Assembly (NCBI RefSeq): GCF_001570405.1 | Contig: NZ_BBYM01000010.1 | Coordinates: 112,909-176,908, forward strand | Origin: Microtetraspora niveoalba | GTDB taxonomy: Bacteria > Actinomycetota > Actinomycetes > Streptosporangiales > Streptosporangiaceae | Direction: 5' to 3' | DNA: 64,000 nucleotides | Part shown: positions 19,531-58,892 of the stretch, in pieces | Layout: each line of letters opens with the position of its first letter | How positions within the stretch are numbered: the first letter of the stretch is position 1 | Notes under the pieces: generated by a model | The model's input: only the letters and a program-made list of their open reading frames with translations | Told to the model about the DNA's origin: nothing | Database searches by the model: none | Translations under genes and position numbers: made by a program

Positions 19531-20184
19531 CTAGCCGTAGGTGTCGCGGGGTCCGCGGCCGCCGCGGACGCGCAACCCGCCCTGTCGCGGCCCCGCCCCC
19601 GGGCCGCGCACCCTCACGCGCTTGACCGTGCCGTCGCCGAGTTCCTCGTTCAGCCGCCTGACCAGCGTGGCCGCGAGCAGCCGCACCTGCGTGGCCCACG
19701 CGGTGGAGTCGGCCGCCACGACCACCTCTCCGTCCTCGAAGGACTCCGGCTTCGTGTGCGCGGCCAGGTCGGGTCCCACGATCTCGTGCCAGCGGCCGAA
19801 CACGCCGCCCATCGCCACCGGCCGCTCCCAGCCGCGGTCGGCGAGCAGGTCTCTGATCGCCTTCGCGAAGGGTTGTGGATCGCCGGCGTCCCGACGCTGC
19901 CCGGAGGACCGGCGGCGCGGCTCGCTGCGCGGGAGCTGCCCCCGCCTCGCCGCGTCCGCCTTCGCCTGGGCCAGCTTCTCCCGCGCCAGCGCCGCCCCTT
20001 TGGCGGCAGTGTTCATGGCACTCGCTGTGCTTACGGCGCTCGCTTCGCTCGCGCGGTTCGGGGCGCTTTCGAGGCGGCTCGTGCCCTCGTCACGTCCTCG
20101 CTCGTCCCTCGCTGCGGGCGTTCCTCGGTTACTTCCCCGCCGCGCCCCGAACAGGTCAGGTGCCTGTGGAAACTCATCGGACAC
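19531..20184 (-). CDS. dciA: DciA family (DUF721) helicase-loader-like protein
   Basis: 217 aa. The C-terminal DciA/DUF721 domain spans about residues 105-195: [55 protein letters not shown] and [17 protein letters not shown]. In bacteria without DnaC/DnaI this protein helps load the replicative helicase DnaB. Residues 1-100 are Arg/Ala/Ser-rich and low in complexity, and include a stretch (bases 20021-20054) that matches a repeat in the murJ leader. GTG start at 20184, overlapping the recF end by 11 bases. Confidence 0.92.
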
Positions 20185-21355
20185 GGGTCGCGTTCCCTTC
20201 CGTCACGTCGAACCGCGCGCCGGCCAGCTCGGCGGGGACGTCGTCCGGCACCGCCGCCGTGATCAGCACCTGCTCGGCCGGCGCGACGATCTCGGCCAGC
20301 CGGGTCCGGCGGTGGCCGTCCAGCTCGGCGAACACGTCGTCCAGGATCAGCACCGGATCGCCGCCGTCCGCCCTGAGCAGGTCGTACGCGGCCAGCCGCA
20401 GCGCCAGCGCGAACGACCACGACTCGCCGTGGCTCGCGTACCCGCGCGCGGGCAGCTCGCCCAACGCCAGGTGCAGATCGTCGCGGTGCGGCCCCACCAG
20501 GGTCACGCCGCGTTCCAGCTCCGACTGCCGCGCCTCGGCCAGGCCGGCCCGCAACGCCTCTTCGAGAATCTCCCGAGACCATCCACAGCCTGTGGGCAAC
20601 TTCACGCCGGTCCGGTATTCCAGATCCGCCGCGGCCGACGCCGGCGCCAGCGTCGCGTACGCCTTGGCGGCCAGCGGGCGCAGCGCCTCGACCAGATCCA
20701 ACCGGGCGGCCAGCAACTCCGCGCCGTGCCGTACGAGATGGGTGTCCCAGACGTCGAGCGTGCTCAGCAGGTCTCCGGCGCCCGCCGACGCGAACGCCGC
20801 CTCGTCGTCCTGCCTGCGCGCGCTCCGCCGCCGCCCCTGCCTGGTCGCCGCGGCCGTGCGCAGCAGCGTGTTGCGCTGCTTGAGCACGCGGTCGTAGTCG
20901 GCGCGGACCCCGGCGAAACGGGGGGCGCGCGCCACGAGCAGGTCGTCGAGGAAGCGGCGCCGTTCCGAGGGGTCGCCCTTCACCAGAGCGAGGTCCTCGG
21001 GGGCGAACAGGACGGTGCGCAGCAGGCCGAGCGCCTCACGCGGCCGGGGGACGGGGGAGCGGTTCACCCGCGCCCGGTTGGCCCGGCCGGGATTGATCTC
21101 CAGCTCGACGAGCGCCCGGCGGTCGTCCCGCGCGACGAGCGCGCGCACGATCGCGCGCTCGGCGCCGTGCCGCACCAGCGGGGCGTCGGTGGCGACGCGG
21201 TGGCTCGACTGCGTCGCGACGTACCCGATCGCCTCGACCAGGTTGGTCTTGCCGTGCCCGTTGGGGCCGACGAACGCCGTCACCCCCGGGTCGAGGGCGA
21301 TCTCGGCCGAGGGATAGGACCGGAAGTCGGTCAGGGACAGGTGGCACACACGCAC
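20174..21355 (-). CDS. recF: DNA repair and replication protein RecF
   Basis: 393-aa SMC-like ATPase that acts at gaps with RecO and RecR to load RecA. Walker [14 protein letters not shown] at about residues 31-43; the signature-like segment [14 protein letters not shown]; Walker [14 protein letters not shown] near residue 340. A basic, Ala-rich insertion ([14 protein letters not shown]) at about 185 resembles the variable arm found in actinomycetes. GTG start at 21355. It follows gnd at 95 bases and overlaps dciA. Confidence 0.96.
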
Positions 21356-21450
21356 CCCGAAAGGCTAGTCCCTGCGGGTGACCGCCCGCGGGGCGACGAA
21401 CTCCGCCGCCGTCACGCCCCGCGCGCTCCGGTCTGTCCACAGCCCGTGGA

Positions 21451-22395
21451 TCAGCGCTGGGCCTCCACCGGCGGGGTCACGTCGGCGCCGGGGGCGTCCG
21501 CGCCCTTGCCGGTCTGCCCCTCCTGCGCGGTGACCGCGTGCCCGCCGAACTGGTTGCGCAGCGCCGCGACCATCTTCATCGCGGGGGAGTCCTCCTGCCG
21601 GGACGCGAAGCGGGCGTACAGCGCGGCCGTGATGACCGGCAGCGGCACCGCGTGCTCCACCGCGGCCTGGACCGTCCACCGGCCCTCTCCCGAGTCCTGG
21701 GCGTACCCCTTGAGGTCGGCCAGGCCGGGATCCTGGTCGAGCGCGCGGACGAGCAGGTCGAGCAGCCACGAGCGGATGACCGTGCCCTGCCGCCAGCTCT
21801 TGAACGACCCGTGGACGTCCGTGACGATGTCGGCGGCCTCGAGCAGCTCCCAGCCCTCGGCGAAGGCCTGCATCATGCCGTACTCGATGCCGTTGTGGAC
21901 CATCTTGGCGAAGTGCCCGGCCCCGATCCGACCGGCGTGGACGAAACCGTCCTCGCCTTCGGGCTTGAGCGTCTCGAAGACCGGCCGGAGCCGCTCCACG
22001 TCCTCTGAGGCGCCGCCGACCATCAGGGCGTAGCCGTTCTCCAGCCCCCACACGCCGCCGCTCACACCGACGTCCACGAAGCCGACCCCCTTGGCGGCGA
22101 GGTCGGCGCCGTGCTTCTGGTCGTCCACGTAGTGGGAGTTGCCGCCGTCGATCACGATGTCCCCGGGGGAGAGCATCTCGCCCAGCAGCCGGACCGTGCT
22201 GTGCGTCGGATCACCGGCGGGCACCATCACCCAGACGGCACGGGGGGTCTCCAGCCGGTCGACCAGTTCCTTGAGGCTGCCGACGTCGCTGAGCCCCGGA
22301 TCCCGGTCGTAACCGACGACCTCATGACCGCCGCGGCGAAGCCGCTCGGCCATGTTGCCACCCATCTTGCCGAGCCCGATCATGCCGATCTGCAT
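21451..22395 (-). CDS. gnd: 6-phosphogluconate dehydrogenase, decarboxylating (short form)
   Basis: 314-aa member of the short GntZ/YqeC-type branch, which oxidises 6-phosphogluconate to ribulose 5-phosphate. Rossmann motif GMIGLGKMGGNMAERL at the N-terminus, substrate motif DVGVSGGVWGLENG (about 118-131), catalytic Lys in GAGHFAKMVHNGIEYG (about 170-185). This branch is often NAD-preferring. The ATG at 22395 follows GAGGGGGG. Its place between dnaN and recF is conserved in Streptomyces and relatives. Confidence 0.96.
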   Translation of the reverse strand: MQIGMIGLGKMGGNMAERLRRGGHEVVGYDRDPGLSDVGSLKELVDRLETPRAVWVMVPAGDPTHSTVRLLGEMLSPGDIVIDGGNSHYVDDQKHGADLAAKGVGFVDVGVSGGVWGLENGYALMVGGASEDVERLRPVFETLKPEGEDGFVHAGRIGAGHFAKMVHNGIEYGMMQAFAEGWELLEAADIVTDVHGSFKSWRQGTVIRSWLLDLLVRALDQDPGLADLKGYAQDSGEGRWTVQAAVEHAVPLPVITAALYARFASRQEDSPAMKMVAALRNQFGGHAVTAQEGQTGKGADAPGADVTPPVEAQR

Positions 22396-22483
22396 AGAGC
22401 AACCCCCCTCAGGGTCGAACATCCACAAGGACGCCGTACCCGGACATACGACCTCCACGCCCGGGAGATCGTACGCCCCCGGG

Positions 22484-23623
22484 TCAGCTCGACAGCCGGA
22501 TCGGCATGATCAGGTAGCGGTAGTCCGGGGTCGCGCCTTCGTCCACAGGCTTGCCGCCGGTGAGGATGGCGGGCTTCGTCGACGTGGTGAACTGCAGGCG
22601 AGCCACGTCGGAGTCGATCGCTCCGAGGCCCTCCAGCAGGAACTGGTGGTTGAACGCGATGTTGATGTCGTCGCCGTCGAAATCGACCGGCAGCACCTCG
22701 ACCGCCTGCGCCTCGTCGCCGCTGCCCGCCTCGAGCACGACCTCGTCGCCGCGGAAGGCCAGCCGTACGGGGGTGTTGCGCTCGGCGACCAGGGCGACGC
22801 GCTTGACCGCCTCGACGAACGACGCGGTCGGGATGTCGGCCCGCGCGGAGAACTCGGTCGGCAGCAGCGAGCGGTACTTCGGGAACTCGGGGTCGAGGAG
22901 CCGCGTCGTGGTCCGCCTGCCCGAGCTGGAGAATCCGATCATGCCCTCGCCGGTGCCGCCGACGGAGCTCAGCGCGATCTCCACCTCGGCTCCGGTGCCG
23001 CCCAGCGCCTTGGCGGTGTCCGCGAGCGTACGGCCCGGCACCATCGCGATCGCCTGGAAGTCGGGCTGCTCGGGGTGCCACTTCAGCTCGCGTACGGCGA
23101 GGCGGTAGCGGTCGGTGGCGGCCAGCGTCACCGTGTCGCCCTCGATCTCCATCCGGACACCCGTGAGCATCGGGAGGGTGTCGTCCTTGCCGGCGGCCAC
23201 GGCGACCTGGCCGACCGCGCCGGCGAAGACGTCGCTGCCGATGCGCCCAGCGGCGGGAGGCATCGCCGGCAGGGAGGGGTAGTCCTCGACGGGCATCGTC
23301 AGCAGGGTGAACCGCGCGCTGCCGCAGGTGACCACGGCCTTGGCACCGTCCACCACGAAATCCACAGGCTGTGCAGGGAGCGCCCGGGTGATCTCGGCGA
23401 GGAGCTTTCCGGAGACGAGGACGACACCCGGCTCACCGGACTGCGGTTCGAGCGTCACCTCCGCCGAGACCTCGTAGTCGAAGCCGGAGAGTTTCAACTG
23501 CTGATCGTCGGTCACTTCTAGGCGCATGCCCGCCAGCACGGGCACGGACGGCCGCGCCGGAAGGCTCCGAGCCGTCCACGCGACGGCCTCGGCGAGTACG
23601 TCGCGGTCGATCCGGAATATCAC
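22484..23623 (-). CDS. dnaN: DNA polymerase III beta subunit (sliding clamp)
   Basis: 379-aa clamp subunit; dimers encircle DNA and tether the polymerase. The three repeated clamp domains are apparent: MIFRIDRDVLAEAVAWTARSL, VAVAAGKDDTLPMLTGVRM, TASFVEAVKRVALVAERNTPVRL. The C-terminus ends PDYRYLIMPIRLS, with the usual YLIMP-type hydrophobic cleft. GTG start at 23623 with AGGAGG nine bases upstream. Transcription begins inside the oriC interval. Confidence 0.97.
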   Translation of the reverse strand: MIFRIDRDVLAEAVAWTARSLPARPSVPVLAGMRLEVTDDQQLKLSGFDYEVSAEVTLEPQSGEPGVVLVSGKLLAEITRALPAQPVDFVVDGAKAVVTCGSARFTLLTMPVEDYPSLPAMPPAAGRIGSDVFAGAVGQVAVAAGKDDTLPMLTGVRMEIEGDTVTLAATDRYRLAVRELKWHPEQPDFQAIAMVPGRTLADTAKALGGTGAEVEIALSSVGGTGEGMIGFSSSGRRTTTRLLDPEFPKYRSLLPTEFSARADIPTASFVEAVKRVALVAERNTPVRLAFRGDEVVLEAGSGDEAQAVEVLPVDFDGDDINIAFNHQFLLEGLGAIDSDVARLQFTTSTKPAILTGGKPVDEGATPDYRYLIMPIRLSS

Positions 23624-23699
23624 GTGGACCAGCCTCCTGGGTATCGCTGCTTGGCATTCTTGCAGGCTTCACTCTCCCGCACCTCCGAGCCCCGAGAAC

Positions 23700-24361
23700 C
23701 CTCTATGGCTCTTGAGTTCTTCAGTAGAGAGAGCAAAGCGTCATCGTCATAGGGGGTGTGGATACTGTGGAAATCTCGTTCCCCCGCAGGTCAGAGCCCA
23801 TTATTCATCCACTGCCGGGTGTGGAGGACCGGTGGATTACCTGGGCATGCCTGGGGATGACCGTCCGTTGCCCACAGGCCGTCCCCAGCCGAGGGGGTCT
23901 CTATCCACCGGTTATCCACGAGTTATCCACTGGTTATCCACCGGATAAAAGCACATCTCAGGTGGACATCTTTCCACTACACACAGGCTGTCCCCAGGCT
24001 ATCCACCAGTCGTCCCCAGGTTGTCCACAGATCTGTCCCCAGGGTACGGGCGCGAATTTCCCCCTGCTGACGGGGTTATTCGACGGCAAGATCGGATGTC
24101 GGCGCACGCCGGTCCACAGAGTTATCCACAGCCTGTGTATCGAGGGGCGCCCGATCTGCCCGCGTGATGCCGGAACGCACCGATCGGACGTGTCCGTACG
24201 CGTGCCGGAACACGCCCACGGCTCGCGTCCTGCGCCGCTCGTGGGTCACGGTGGCGTCGTCGTCGCGAGGGCCCAGGGCCGGGCAGGTGATGCCGTGAGG
24301 CGCGGCGGGGAACCCCGTCAACGCGGGGTGCGGGAGCCCGTCCGCAGGGTGCGGGAGCCCG
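23700..24361. other. oriC: Chromosomal replication origin (oriC)
   Basis: The gene-free interval between dnaN and dnaA. DnaA boxes (TTRTCCACA type) include TTATCCACG 23912, TTATCCACT 23923, TTATCCACC 23934, CTATCCACC 23901 and 23999, TTGTCCACA 24021, TTATCCACA 24122, and one reversed at 23757-23765 (TGTGGATAC). Weaker forms occur at 23868 (TTGCCCACA) and 23879. Many of these keep an exact 11-bp step. ATAAAA directly follows the first array, and a relatively AT-rich patch at 23700-23750 could be the unwinding site. A direct repeat (GTGCGGGAGCCCGTC, twice near 24329-24364) closes the region beside the dnaA stop. Confidence 0.95.
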
Positions 24362-25891
24362 TCACGCGCTGCGCGCGCGCTGCTTGATCCGGGTCGTCAG
24401 CTCGTTGACCTGGTTGTACATCGACCGGCGCTCCGCCATCAGCGACCTGATCTTGCGCTCGGCGTGCATGACGGTCGTGTGGTCGCGACCGCCGAACTGG
24501 TGACCGATCTTGGGAAGCGACAGGTCGGTGAGCTCACGGGCGAGATACATGGCGATCTGCCGGGCCGTCACCAGGGCGCGCGAGCGCGAGGTCCCGCAGA
24601 CGTCGTCGAGGGAGACGCCGAAGTACTCGGCGGTCGTCGACATGATGAGCGAGATGGTGATCTCGGGGGTCGTGTCCTCGCTGATCAGGTCTTTGAGCAC
24701 GATCTCGGTGAGCTTGATGTCCACCGACTGCCGGTTGAGGCTGGCGAACGCGGTCACCCGGATCAGCGCGCCCTCCAGCTCCCGGATGTTCGTGGAGATC
24801 CGGCTGGCGATGTATTCCAGCACGTCGGGCGGCGCGGCCAGGCCCTCCTGGATCGCTTTCTTGCGCAGGATCGCGATGCGCGTCTCCAGCTCGGGCGGCT
24901 GGACGTCCGTGATCAGCCCCCACTCGAAGCGGTTGCGCAGCCGGTCCTCCAGGGTGACGAGCTGCTTGGGCGCCCGGTCACTGGAGATCACGATCTGCTT
25001 GCTCGCGTTGTGGAGCGTGTTGAAGGTGTGGAAGAACTCCTCCTGCGTCTGCTCCTTGCCTTCGAGGAACTGGATGTCGTCCACGAGCAGGATGTCCACA
25101 GCCCGGTAGCGGGCACGGAACCCGTCCGCCTTGTGGTCGCGGATGGAGTTGATGAAGTCGTTGGTGAACTCCTCCGAGCTCACGTACCTGACCCGCGCGC
25201 CGTCGTACAGGCTCTGCGCGTAATGGCCGATCGCGTGCAGCAGGTGGGTCTTGCCCAGCCCCGAGTCGCCGTAGATGAACAGCGGGTTGTACGCCTTGGC
25301 CGGCGTCTCCGCGACCGCGACCGCGGCGGCGTGCGCGAACCGGTTGCTCGCGCCGATGACGAACGTCTCGAAGGTGTACTTGGCGTTCAGCCGGGCCGGC
25401 TCCCCCGCGGTGCGGCCGCCGCGGCTGTCCCACCTGTTCTGCGGCGGCTCCGCGCTCCCCGGCTGCGGTGGCTCGGGAGGAGCGACGCCGTCCTGCGGCT
25501 CCTGCGGGCCCTCCTGTGGATAGTCGGACGACGGCGGAGGCGCCGCGCCGGGGCGGGACTGCGGCCCGGGCCCGCGCTGCGGAAAGGAGGGCGAAGGGGA
25601 GAAGGAGTCGTGCTTGCGGCCGTCGCCCCCGGTCTCCTGGGGGTCGACCATCACGGCGATGCGCATCGGCCGGCCGAACTCCTGGGAGAGCGCGTGCGCG
25701 ATGAGCGGCCGGAGCCGGACCTCGATGACTTCCTTGGCGAAATCGTTCGGAGCGGCGAGGAGGATGGTGTCGTTGATGAGCCCGGACGGCTGGGTCATCT
25801 GGAGAAACGCCCGCTGTTGTCCTGAAACGCCCTCATCGAGAAGGGTCCTCAGCGCGCGAGCCCACACCTCGTTGAGGTCGTCGGCCTCCAT
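24362..25891 (-). CDS. dnaA: Chromosomal replication initiator DnaA
   Basis: 509 aa. Domain I (residues 1-90) binds partners; domain II (about 95-165) is Pro/Gln/Gly-rich and disordered, long as in actinomycetes. AAA+ domain III has Walker [10 protein letters not shown] and Walker [10 protein letters not shown], with the arginine finger region in [12 protein letters not shown]. Domain IV binds DnaA boxes through [18 protein letters not shown] at 25891 with AGGGAGGAG upstream. The promoter region carries DnaA boxes, so autoregulation is likely. Confidence 0.98.
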
Positions 25892-26017
25892 GGTCGGGCA
25901 CTCCTCCCTAGCGCGGCCCCCGCAGATTCGCCGCGATCCGTTCTTTCACGCAGGTCCCGGCCGGAGGCGGCCCGGCGGGACCAGCCCCCGATACGTGATC
26001 CACAGAGGATCCACACG

Positions 26018-26126
26018 TTATGCACAGGCCGTCGCAAGGTCCCGGGCGCATCCACGTTCGATGGAGGAGGGTCCGGAGGGTTGACAGTAGTGGTGTGCGC
26101 GACCTGGGTTCAAGACGTTGTCCACA
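26018..26126 (-). promoter_or_regulatory. dnaA promoter with two DnaA boxes
   Basis: Read leftwards, TTGAAC (26113-26108) and TACTGT (26089-26084) form a -35/-10 pair with an 18-base spacer. A perfect actinomycete box TTGTCCACA (26118-26126) lies just upstream, and TTATGCACA (26018-26026) lies in the leader. DnaA bound there could repress its own gene. Start sites were inferred from sequence only. Confidence 0.65.
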
Positions 26127-58057: not shown

Positions 58058-58078
58058 TTATCCACAGGCTGTGGACAC
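58058..58078. promoter_or_regulatory. Inverted pair of DnaA boxes
   Basis: TTATCCACA (58058-58066) faces TGTGGACAC (58070-58078) across GGC, directly after the GT87 gene and before the end of the endonuclease gene. This is an off-origin DnaA-binding cluster, 34 kb from oriC. Confidence 0.6.
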
Positions 58079-58097
58079 TGTGGAGAACCGGTGGACG

Positions 58098-58892
58098 TCA
58101 GAGGTGCTTGCGCAGGAAGGCGATGTCGTCGGCCTGGCCCTCGAACGGCGTCTCCACCACGATCGGCGCTTCGGCCTGGCGGCAGACCGCGAGGATGCGC
58201 TCGGCGTCGATCTGGCCCGCGCCCAGGTTGGCGTGCCGGTCCGCGCCGGAGTCGAAGGCGTCGCGCGAGTCGTTGCAGTGGACCAGGTCGATGCGGCCGG
58301 TGATCGCCTTCACCCGGTCCACGACGTCGGCGAGGTCCTCGCCGCCCGCGTGCGCGTGACAGGTGTCCAGGCAGAAGCCGATCATCGACGCGTCCCGCGC
58401 ACCCGAGGTGACCGCGTCCCAGAGCCTGGCGATCCGATCGAGCTTGCGCGCCATCGCGTTGCCGCCGCCCGCCGTGTTCTCGATCAGCACGGGGATCGGG
58501 CAGTCCATCCGCTCGAACACCTTGCGCCAGTTGTCGAACCCGATCTGCGGGTCGTCGTCCTTGTTGACGTGGCCGCCGTGGACGATCAGGCCCTTCGCGC
58601 CGATGGAGGCGGCCGCCTTGAGGTGGCCCTCCAGGAGCTTGCGGCTCGGGATGCGGATCCGGTTGTTCGCCGTGGCCACGTTGATCACGTAGGGCGCGTG
58701 GACGTAGACGTCCACCTCCGACTCCTTGATCGCGTCGGCGCTCTCCGGCAGGACCGGGCCCTTCCACCCCTGCGGGTCGCCGAGGAAGAACTGCACGACG
58801 TCGGCGTCGCGCGCCGCCGCGTGGGCGAGCGGGTCGTCCTGGTCGACGTGCGCGCCGATGCGCGGGAGGCGTACGTCCTGACCACTGCCCAT
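58098..58892 (-). CDS. nfo: Deoxyribonuclease IV (endonuclease IV, AP endonuclease)
   Basis: 264-aa TIM-barrel, zinc-dependent AP endonuclease for base-excision repair. Metal ligands seen in LIVHGGHVN (His), VLIENTAGGGN (Glu), GFCLDTCHAHAGG (Asp, His), LVHCNDSRDAF (His, Asp) and VVETPFEGQ (Glu). The start at 58892 (MGSGQDV) is chosen because GGAGGTAGG lies upstream; a longer frame from 58940 exists. It is convergent with the GT87 pair and divergent from the small membrane protein. Confidence 0.94.
   Translation of the reverse strand: MGSGQDVRLPRIGAHVDQDDPLAHAAARDADVVQFFLGDPQGWKGPVLPESADAIKESEVDVYVHAPYVINVATANNRIRIPSRKLLEGHLKAAASIGAKGLIVHGGHVNKDDDPQIGFDNWRKVFERMDCPIPVLIENTAGGGNAMARKLDRIARLWDAVTSGARDASMIGFCLDTCHAHAGGEDLADVVDRVKAITGRIDLVHCNDSRDAFDSGADRHANLGAGQIDAERILAVCRQAEAPIVVETPFEGQADDIAFLRKHL

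Follow-up and report, generated by a model that had tools for sequence, protein, structure and literature searches.

The replication origin (oriC) of a Microtetraspora-like Streptosporangiaceae genome carries two rows of DnaA sites spaced about one DNA turn (11 bp) apart, an observation that was confirmed here. It is likely that these two co-oriented arrays serve as a scaffold on which an ordered DnaA oligomer assembles in phase with the unwinding element. The positions of the sites, their register, their conservation, and their change in steps of ~10 to 11 bp are established by comparison of the window (i.e., the whole 64-kb stretch of DNA that was analyzed) with related origins.

The arrays lie in a 738-bp gap between dnaN and dnaA, which is the chromosomal origin at the ordinary actinomycete oriC location. 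The first-pass annotation had named this region oriC, and its call was borne out by the Pfam identification of dnaN and dnaA on either side. The cumulative GC skew minimum (-0.25, in the bin from 20001 to 24000; the signal is shallow inside 64 kb) fits this location. Three features of a dnaA-dnaN type bacterial oriC were found, i.e., a dnaA/dnaN intergenic position, an above-chance DnaA box cluster, and a GC-skew switch. Past dnaA, Pfam identified rnpA and yidD, and past dnaN a gene for a RecF/SMC-type ATPase; the neighbors that we take to be rpmH, yidC, gnd, and recF were named by eye from their translations. Three genomes of the window's genus were searched, and their intergenic regions are identical. 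The features of the locus are as follows.

22484 to 23623, minus strand: dnaN (beta clamp), with three Pfam DNA_pol3_beta domains; oriC flank
23694 to 23753, no strand: probable DNA-unwinding element, a conserved least stable block adjoining dnaN
23757 to 23774, minus strand: two abutting reverse boxes (TGTGGATAC, TGTGGAAAT) next to the probable unwinding element, the second at a conserved distance from b4
23820 to 23839, minus strand: reverse box pair, 11 bp apart
23868 to 23889, plus strand: first two units of array 1 (boxes A and B), occupied in 56/61 and 49/61 fitted genomes without the 10-bp insert
23890 to 23900, no strand: in-register slot without a box (box in 0/61 fitted genomes), often G-rich
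23901 to 23944, plus strand: four consecutive 11-bp units of array 1 (b1 to b4), all four slots being filled in 61/61 fitted genomes, a count in which anchoring favors b2 to b4
23945 to 23976, no strand: inter-array spacer of 32 bp, including ATAAAA; 31 to 32 bp in core genomes, with a sequence that drifts strongly between genera
23977 to 24041, plus strand: array 2, with units at 23977, 23988, 23999, 24010, and 24021 and then, after a 12-bp step, 24033
24110 to 24130, plus strand: two boxes near dnaA (CGGTCCACA, TTATCCACA) at a 12-bp interval, the same 12-bp pair occurring in seven relatives, two of which (L004 and L031) are identical
24362 to 25891, minus strand: dnaA (Pfam Bac_DnaA, 3.5e-77; Bac_DnaA_C, 1.1e-29), encoding the initiator expected on the arrays (putative binding)
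25996 to 26028, plus strand: third array in the 11-bp register, in the dnaA promoter region, with boxes at 25996, 26007, and 26018

All box positions proposed in the first-pass annotation (23868, 23879, 23901, 23912, 23923, 23934, 23988, 23999, 24010, 24021, and 24033) were correct, and several of its further claims needed amendment. The 11-mers of array 1 are TTGCCCACAGG (23868), CCGTCCCCAGC (23879), CTATCCACCGG (23901), TTATCCACGAG (23912), TTATCCACTGG (23923), and TTATCCACCGG (23934). The listed starts of the second set hold, but its first unit had been overlooked, and the array truly starts at 23977 (CTACACACAGG). Steps of exactly 11 bp describe most units but not the final one, from 24021 to 24033, which measures 12 bp. 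Similarly, the claimed two-purine ending is present in 10 of the 11 listed units and is lacking only in the unit at 23879, which ends in GC. Inside each array the sites are thus co-oriented and exactly 2 bp apart, apart from the 12-bp step that ends array 2 and the slot without a box. Tandem Repeats Finder (TRF) also called 11-bp arrays at 23902 to 23944 and 23984 to 24043. The empty slot (23890 to 23900) might be a site for some other protein.

This spacing far exceeds chance expectation. The intergenic region contains seven plus-strand box pairs at a lag of 11 bp, whereas 2,000 dinucleotide shuffles averaged 0.0055 such pairs and never gave more than 1; the whole window contains 17 matches to TTATCCACA with at most one mismatch on both strands, where 1.6 were expected. 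Sets of three TCCMC cores at 11-bp steps number four in the 8.47-Mb genome, all of them inside these arrays (reversed control, 0). The looser two-core pattern (RTCCAC twice) is unspecific, with 12 genome-wide matches (3 in array 1, 1 before dnaA, and 8 elsewhere; reversed control, 2). For the comparisons across genomes, a weight matrix was derived from TTRTCCACA-like 9-mers (at most two mismatches) of the same intergenic regions, with the window and its copy L001 removed. The results obtained with this matrix are backed by a matrix-free count of TCCMC pairs in 28 core origins, which gave 152 pairs at lag 11, compared with 3, 53, and 7 at lags 10, 12, and 13, respectively.

Of 168 sources, 157 yielded a dnaA-dnaN region; removal of L001 (the window itself) and seven near-identical regions left 149. 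These contain 458 lag-11 pairs, compared with 76.7 +/- 8.7 (maximum, 106 in 500 jitters) when each box was displaced by at most 6 bp. Taken singly, 52 of the regions reach significance (p<=0.01), and runs of at least three units occur in 55. The first round of the window's family (f1) comprised 37 genomes, 35 of which were counted (G022 and G023 lie outside the count). Runs of at least three were found in 27 of these 35, a figure unselected for the trait. The eight others (G005, G014, G016, G017, G020, G027, G032, and G035, with G027 near-identical to L053) lack a run of three, and long runs are therefore not essential for actinomycete origins. Among 88 further family regions (from 90 sources, the choice of which leaned to close relatives), all but L241 and L243 have such a run (86/88). 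Retention of the 11-bp spacing in relatives had been set in advance as the check on the first-pass annotation, and the spacing is kept in Streptosporangiaceae both near to the window and further from it. Long runs also occur in the Nocardiopsidaceae and Thermomonosporaceae regions that were sampled.

On a quickly built DnaA tree of 148 of the 149 rows, with low support in places, 47 of the 55 long-run regions fall in one 58-row clade, and the long-run label requires 10 changes, compared with 44.8 when shuffled. The remaining eight (L076, L089, L099, L132, L143, L149, L153, and L162), with runs of three or four, are scattered outside this Streptosporangiales-type clade. Nine regions that are near the family by DnaA (L009, L016, L047, L117, L118, L119, L122, L129, and L137) have few boxes, none of them in a phased run. 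The idea that long 11-bp arrays are a rule across actinomycetes was rejected, since several groups favor 12 bp. In a comparison whose group labels were set after the per-region results, so that the "array-type" group is selected on the trait, 12 bp exceeds 11 bp in a Micrococcales-type group, a Nocardioides/Frankiales-type group, other families of the same class, and an uncultured f1 group. Isolated pairs at 11 and 12 bp number 1.12 and 0.71 per region in an aquatic-actinobacteria group and 1.05 and 0.05 per region in other classes of the phylum. Long arrays are thus typical of Streptosporangiaceae and not universal.

The layout is conserved along with the spacing. In the 28-genome core, which includes the window and was chosen as a clade after the tree was seen, array 1 consists of box A, box B, the empty slot, and b1 to b4. 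Its units keep their own identity (b2 is often TTATCCACGAG, and b3, which is TTATCCACTGG in the window, is often GTTTCCACNGG), and 194 of 224 linkers are purine-purine. The first-pass annotation had seen a near-tandem repeat; it is not a fresh one, the units being positionally orthologous between genera. A recent tandem duplication by slippage, with the spacing unselected, could account for the 11-bp repeat scored by TRF and for an array 2 whose length varies in 11-bp steps, as gain or loss of units would give (56 bp in 8, 67 bp in 58, and 78 bp in 5 of the 77 fitted genomes, 71 in total; the other six chains end without the 12-bp step). We nevertheless regard slippage as extremely unlikely: orthologous units are 0.819 identical across 27 genomes, compared with 0.750 when the unit order is permuted (maximum, 0.765 of 500), units inside one genome are only 0.723 alike, and the same register recurs before dnaA.

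Of 116 family origins, 92 were non-redundant, and 77 of these fit one layout. The 15 that do not (L240, L241, L243, L245 to L250, and L252 to L257) have DnaA C termini with at most 83% identity to that of the window, except for L240 and L243 (84%). The unwinding-side reverse box lies 166 to 169 bp from b4 in 61 of the 77 and 177 to 179 bp in the other 16, a distance that is partly circular, the fit having demanded an offset of -160 to -180 from b4. Score cutoffs alone, with no condition on the offset, passed 82 of the 92, and the five extra origins (at -135, -157, -158, -261, and -262) indicate that further distance classes exist in more distant family members. No box was found at slots shifted by 3, 5, or 8 bp in any of the 61 fitted genomes tested. 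The 177- to 179-bp class consists of genomes from several genera (L005, L010, L011, L014, L044, L195, L204, L205, L207, L208, L211, L229, L236, L237, L238, and L242) with an insertion of ~10 bp and varied sequence between b1 and b2. On the DnaN tree, this insertion needs seven label changes, two of which are forced by starred branches. The step between the arrays is 42/43 bp modulo 11 in all 77 fitted genomes; for L044 it is 43 in the family fit and 32 (i.e., 43 minus 11) in the core alignment. The spacers themselves have a median identity of 0.355, compared with 0.28 for shuffled sequences (27 spacers), so that length is kept while sequence drifts.

These distances bear on a narrower explanation, in which only the local DnaA-DnaA contact across the 2-bp linker matters, the larger distances are kept by descent, and global phase is irrelevant. 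An adjacent-pair spacing of 2 to 3 bp is reported to suffice for Escherichia coli DnaA in vivo (PMC11317965), the relatives share ancestry, the starred branches force two insertion changes only, and the five more distant origins place the reverse box elsewhere. Against it, an insertion close to one turn in length and varied in sequence widens the b1-b2 contact to about 21 bp in 16 of the 77 fitted genomes, and the inter-array step stays constant modulo 11 despite the sequence drift; we judge this explanation to be unlikely. A hairpin in the spacer was rejected as a shared feature (mean z, -0.68 for 28 spacers, compared with -0.16 for 338 control segments), and none was found in the spacer of the window (z, -0.08). 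The well-folding spacers are those of L005, L036, L013, L019, L012, and L017, with a strong inverted repeat in L005 (z, -6.6).

Relaxed DNA has 10.5 bp per turn. The first-pass annotation had placed DnaA on one face of the helix; this holds roughly for each array alone (vector strength, about 0.8 at 10.5 bp/turn), but the pair would line up only on DNA that is slightly underwound compared with 10.5 bp/turn. The vector strength for the two arrays of the window is 0.976 at 10.9 bp/turn and 0.347 at 10.5 bp/turn, and therefore they would not share a face in relaxed DNA. Across 28 genomes, coherence is best at a median of 10.92 bp/turn (range, 10.78 to 10.98). A bolder reading, which we offer tentatively and consider rather unlikely, is that the Streptosporangiaceae origin is a quantized helical ruler over ~280 bp, tuned to ~10.9 bp/turn (i.e., slightly underwound), in which both arrays share one phase with the unwinding-side boxes and evolution moves the modules by whole turns.

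The unwinding element probably lies beside dnaN. The calculated least stable 40-mer is located on the dnaN side, 220 to 244 bp upstream of b4, in 26 of 28 core genomes, the exceptions being L011 and the window. In the window, the dnaN-side block (-50.8) comes second by 0.2 kcal/mol to a block covering b2 to b4 and ATAAAA (-50.6). The ATAAAA after array 1, to which the first-pass annotation had drawn attention, is not conserved as such among core genomes; for this reason and because of the prevalence of the dnaN-side block, it was rejected as a conserved unwinding element. Helix opening in Mycobacterium tuberculosis was mapped 500 to 518 bp from dnaN according to PMC2607554, a result that lends no support to dnaN-side opening in all actinomycetes. 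A strict DnaA-trio beside the reverse boxes (a box followed within 16 nucleotides by at least three N-A-N trios) is absent from the window and present in 5 of 77 fitted genomes. The basal unwinding system (BUS) in its strict form was therefore rejected for the reverse boxes of the window; deviant trios are permitted in the BUS as described in PMC8287927.

We infer DnaA occupancy, cooperativity, oligomer polarity, unwinding on the dnaN side, and autorepression, as follows. A 9-bp box with a 2-bp linker would set neighboring DnaA molecules about one helical turn apart and allow head-to-tail docking. With strong and weak boxes in one register, DnaA on the better boxes may aid the filling of the weaker ones, yielding one ordered oligomer. 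The 42/43-bp step between the arrays and the fixed distance to the reverse boxes would hold this oligomer in phase with the unwinding element, such that strain or a captured single strand could be directed to the low-stability block on the dnaN side. The same assembly on the third array, before dnaA, may repress that gene.

The third array (25996 to 26028) is probably an autoregulation site upstream of dnaA. In a scan of a stretch that starts inside dnaA, every core genome (28/28) had a minimum of two units in register, separated by 11 or 22 bp, and 26 of the 28 had three or more. A compact box cluster also occurs outside oriC, at 58058 to 58098, with TTATCCACA on the plus strand at 58058 and reverse boxes at ~58070, ~58079, and ~58090, the last two of which are 11 bp apart; it is possibly a DnaA titration or regulatory site. 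The phased array before dnaA and the cluster at 58 kb could be read to mean that the boxes chiefly titrate DnaA or regulate dnaN/dnaA, the phased arrays not being an initiation scaffold. This seems highly unlikely, given that the dnaN/dnaA position and the GC-skew minimum fit an origin and that replication in Streptomyces is reported to need all oriC boxes and the spacer (PMC3411110).

The scaffold that we favor has counterparts in known systems. The principle, i.e., co-oriented DnaA sites spaced 2 bp apart, is known from E. coli, and the Streptosporangiaceae arrangement is a clade-specific variant of it. In the E. coli arrays (R5M-tau2-I1-I2 and C3-C2-I3-C1), as described in PMC4451416, sites are exactly 2 bp apart and point in one direction within each array, as in the window, and they lie on the same face and are filled cooperatively from the better sites. 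E. coli DnaA favors box pairs 2 to 3 bp apart, with one more base pair costing much binding (PMC11317965). The E. coli arrays, however, point toward each other within a frame of R1, R2, and R4, whereas both long arrays of the window are on the plus strand; an array pair of opposite orientation was not found in the window, where the reverse boxes on the dnaN side form short groups. The window also differs in having ~6 units per array, several of them near-consensus, and a break in array 1 at the conserved empty slot. What is different here is therefore that the long arrays face the same way and are longer, that an empty slot is conserved, and that an insertion of about one turn recurs. Among the matches listed in a literature search, no title or abstract described DnaA arrays at 11 bp or insertions of one turn for Streptosporangiales, which is weak evidence of absence.

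Streptomyces oriC resembles the window in its dnaA-dnaN location, its many boxes (19) in two groups, and its need for the spacer (PMC3411110). In contrast, the longest 11-bp run in the one Streptomyces region sampled (L051) is two units, and its lag-11 pairs are not above the jitter null (p = 0.14); the three-region group to which it belongs mixes 21-, 11-, and 12-bp lags. The DnaA-oligomerizing region of Thermotoga maritima likewise contains direct-repeat boxes that pair best at 2 bp in vitro, and the helical turn between the unwinding element and the boxes was tested there as important (PMC10316083), but it has another box sequence (PMC4285127), few boxes, and mixed orientations. A plasmid record labeled as pTrp of Buchnera from Cinara fornacula (NZ_LT667502) contains 11-bp repeats arranged head to tail, whose sequence, TTATCCACCGG, matches the unit at 23934 of the window exactly, although these are homogeneous plasmid repeats in an unrelated host and the record annotates two trp genes only. 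In this record (L111), the repeats lie at both ends, at about 1 to 122 and 2783 to 2904.

A link between the length of the domain II linker of DnaA and box spacing is suggested in PMC4451416. Domain II (measured between the ends of the domain I and domain III queries) spans 76 to 259 residues across the 28 core genomes, in which the register is constant at 11 bp. As a cause of the spacing, its length was rejected in view of this wide variation, which argues that linker length does not set box spacing in this clade. Among the 149 regions, median lengths of 137 residues for array regions (n = 49) and 55 residues for others (n = 75) are confounded by phylogeny.

Changes between boxes in E. coli are tolerated when they amount to one turn and not when they amount to part of a turn, as engineered changes summarized in a review have indicated (PMC4285127). 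The related origins described here resemble a natural version of that phasing experiment, in that the spacing is retained as the sequence changes and an insert close to one turn long is seen repeatedly. If the tentative ruler reading were true, coherent assembly of DnaA would require a negatively supercoiled origin, and the spacing of its sites would read supercoiling. The family of origins to which the window belongs offers direct tests with an actinomycete DnaA.
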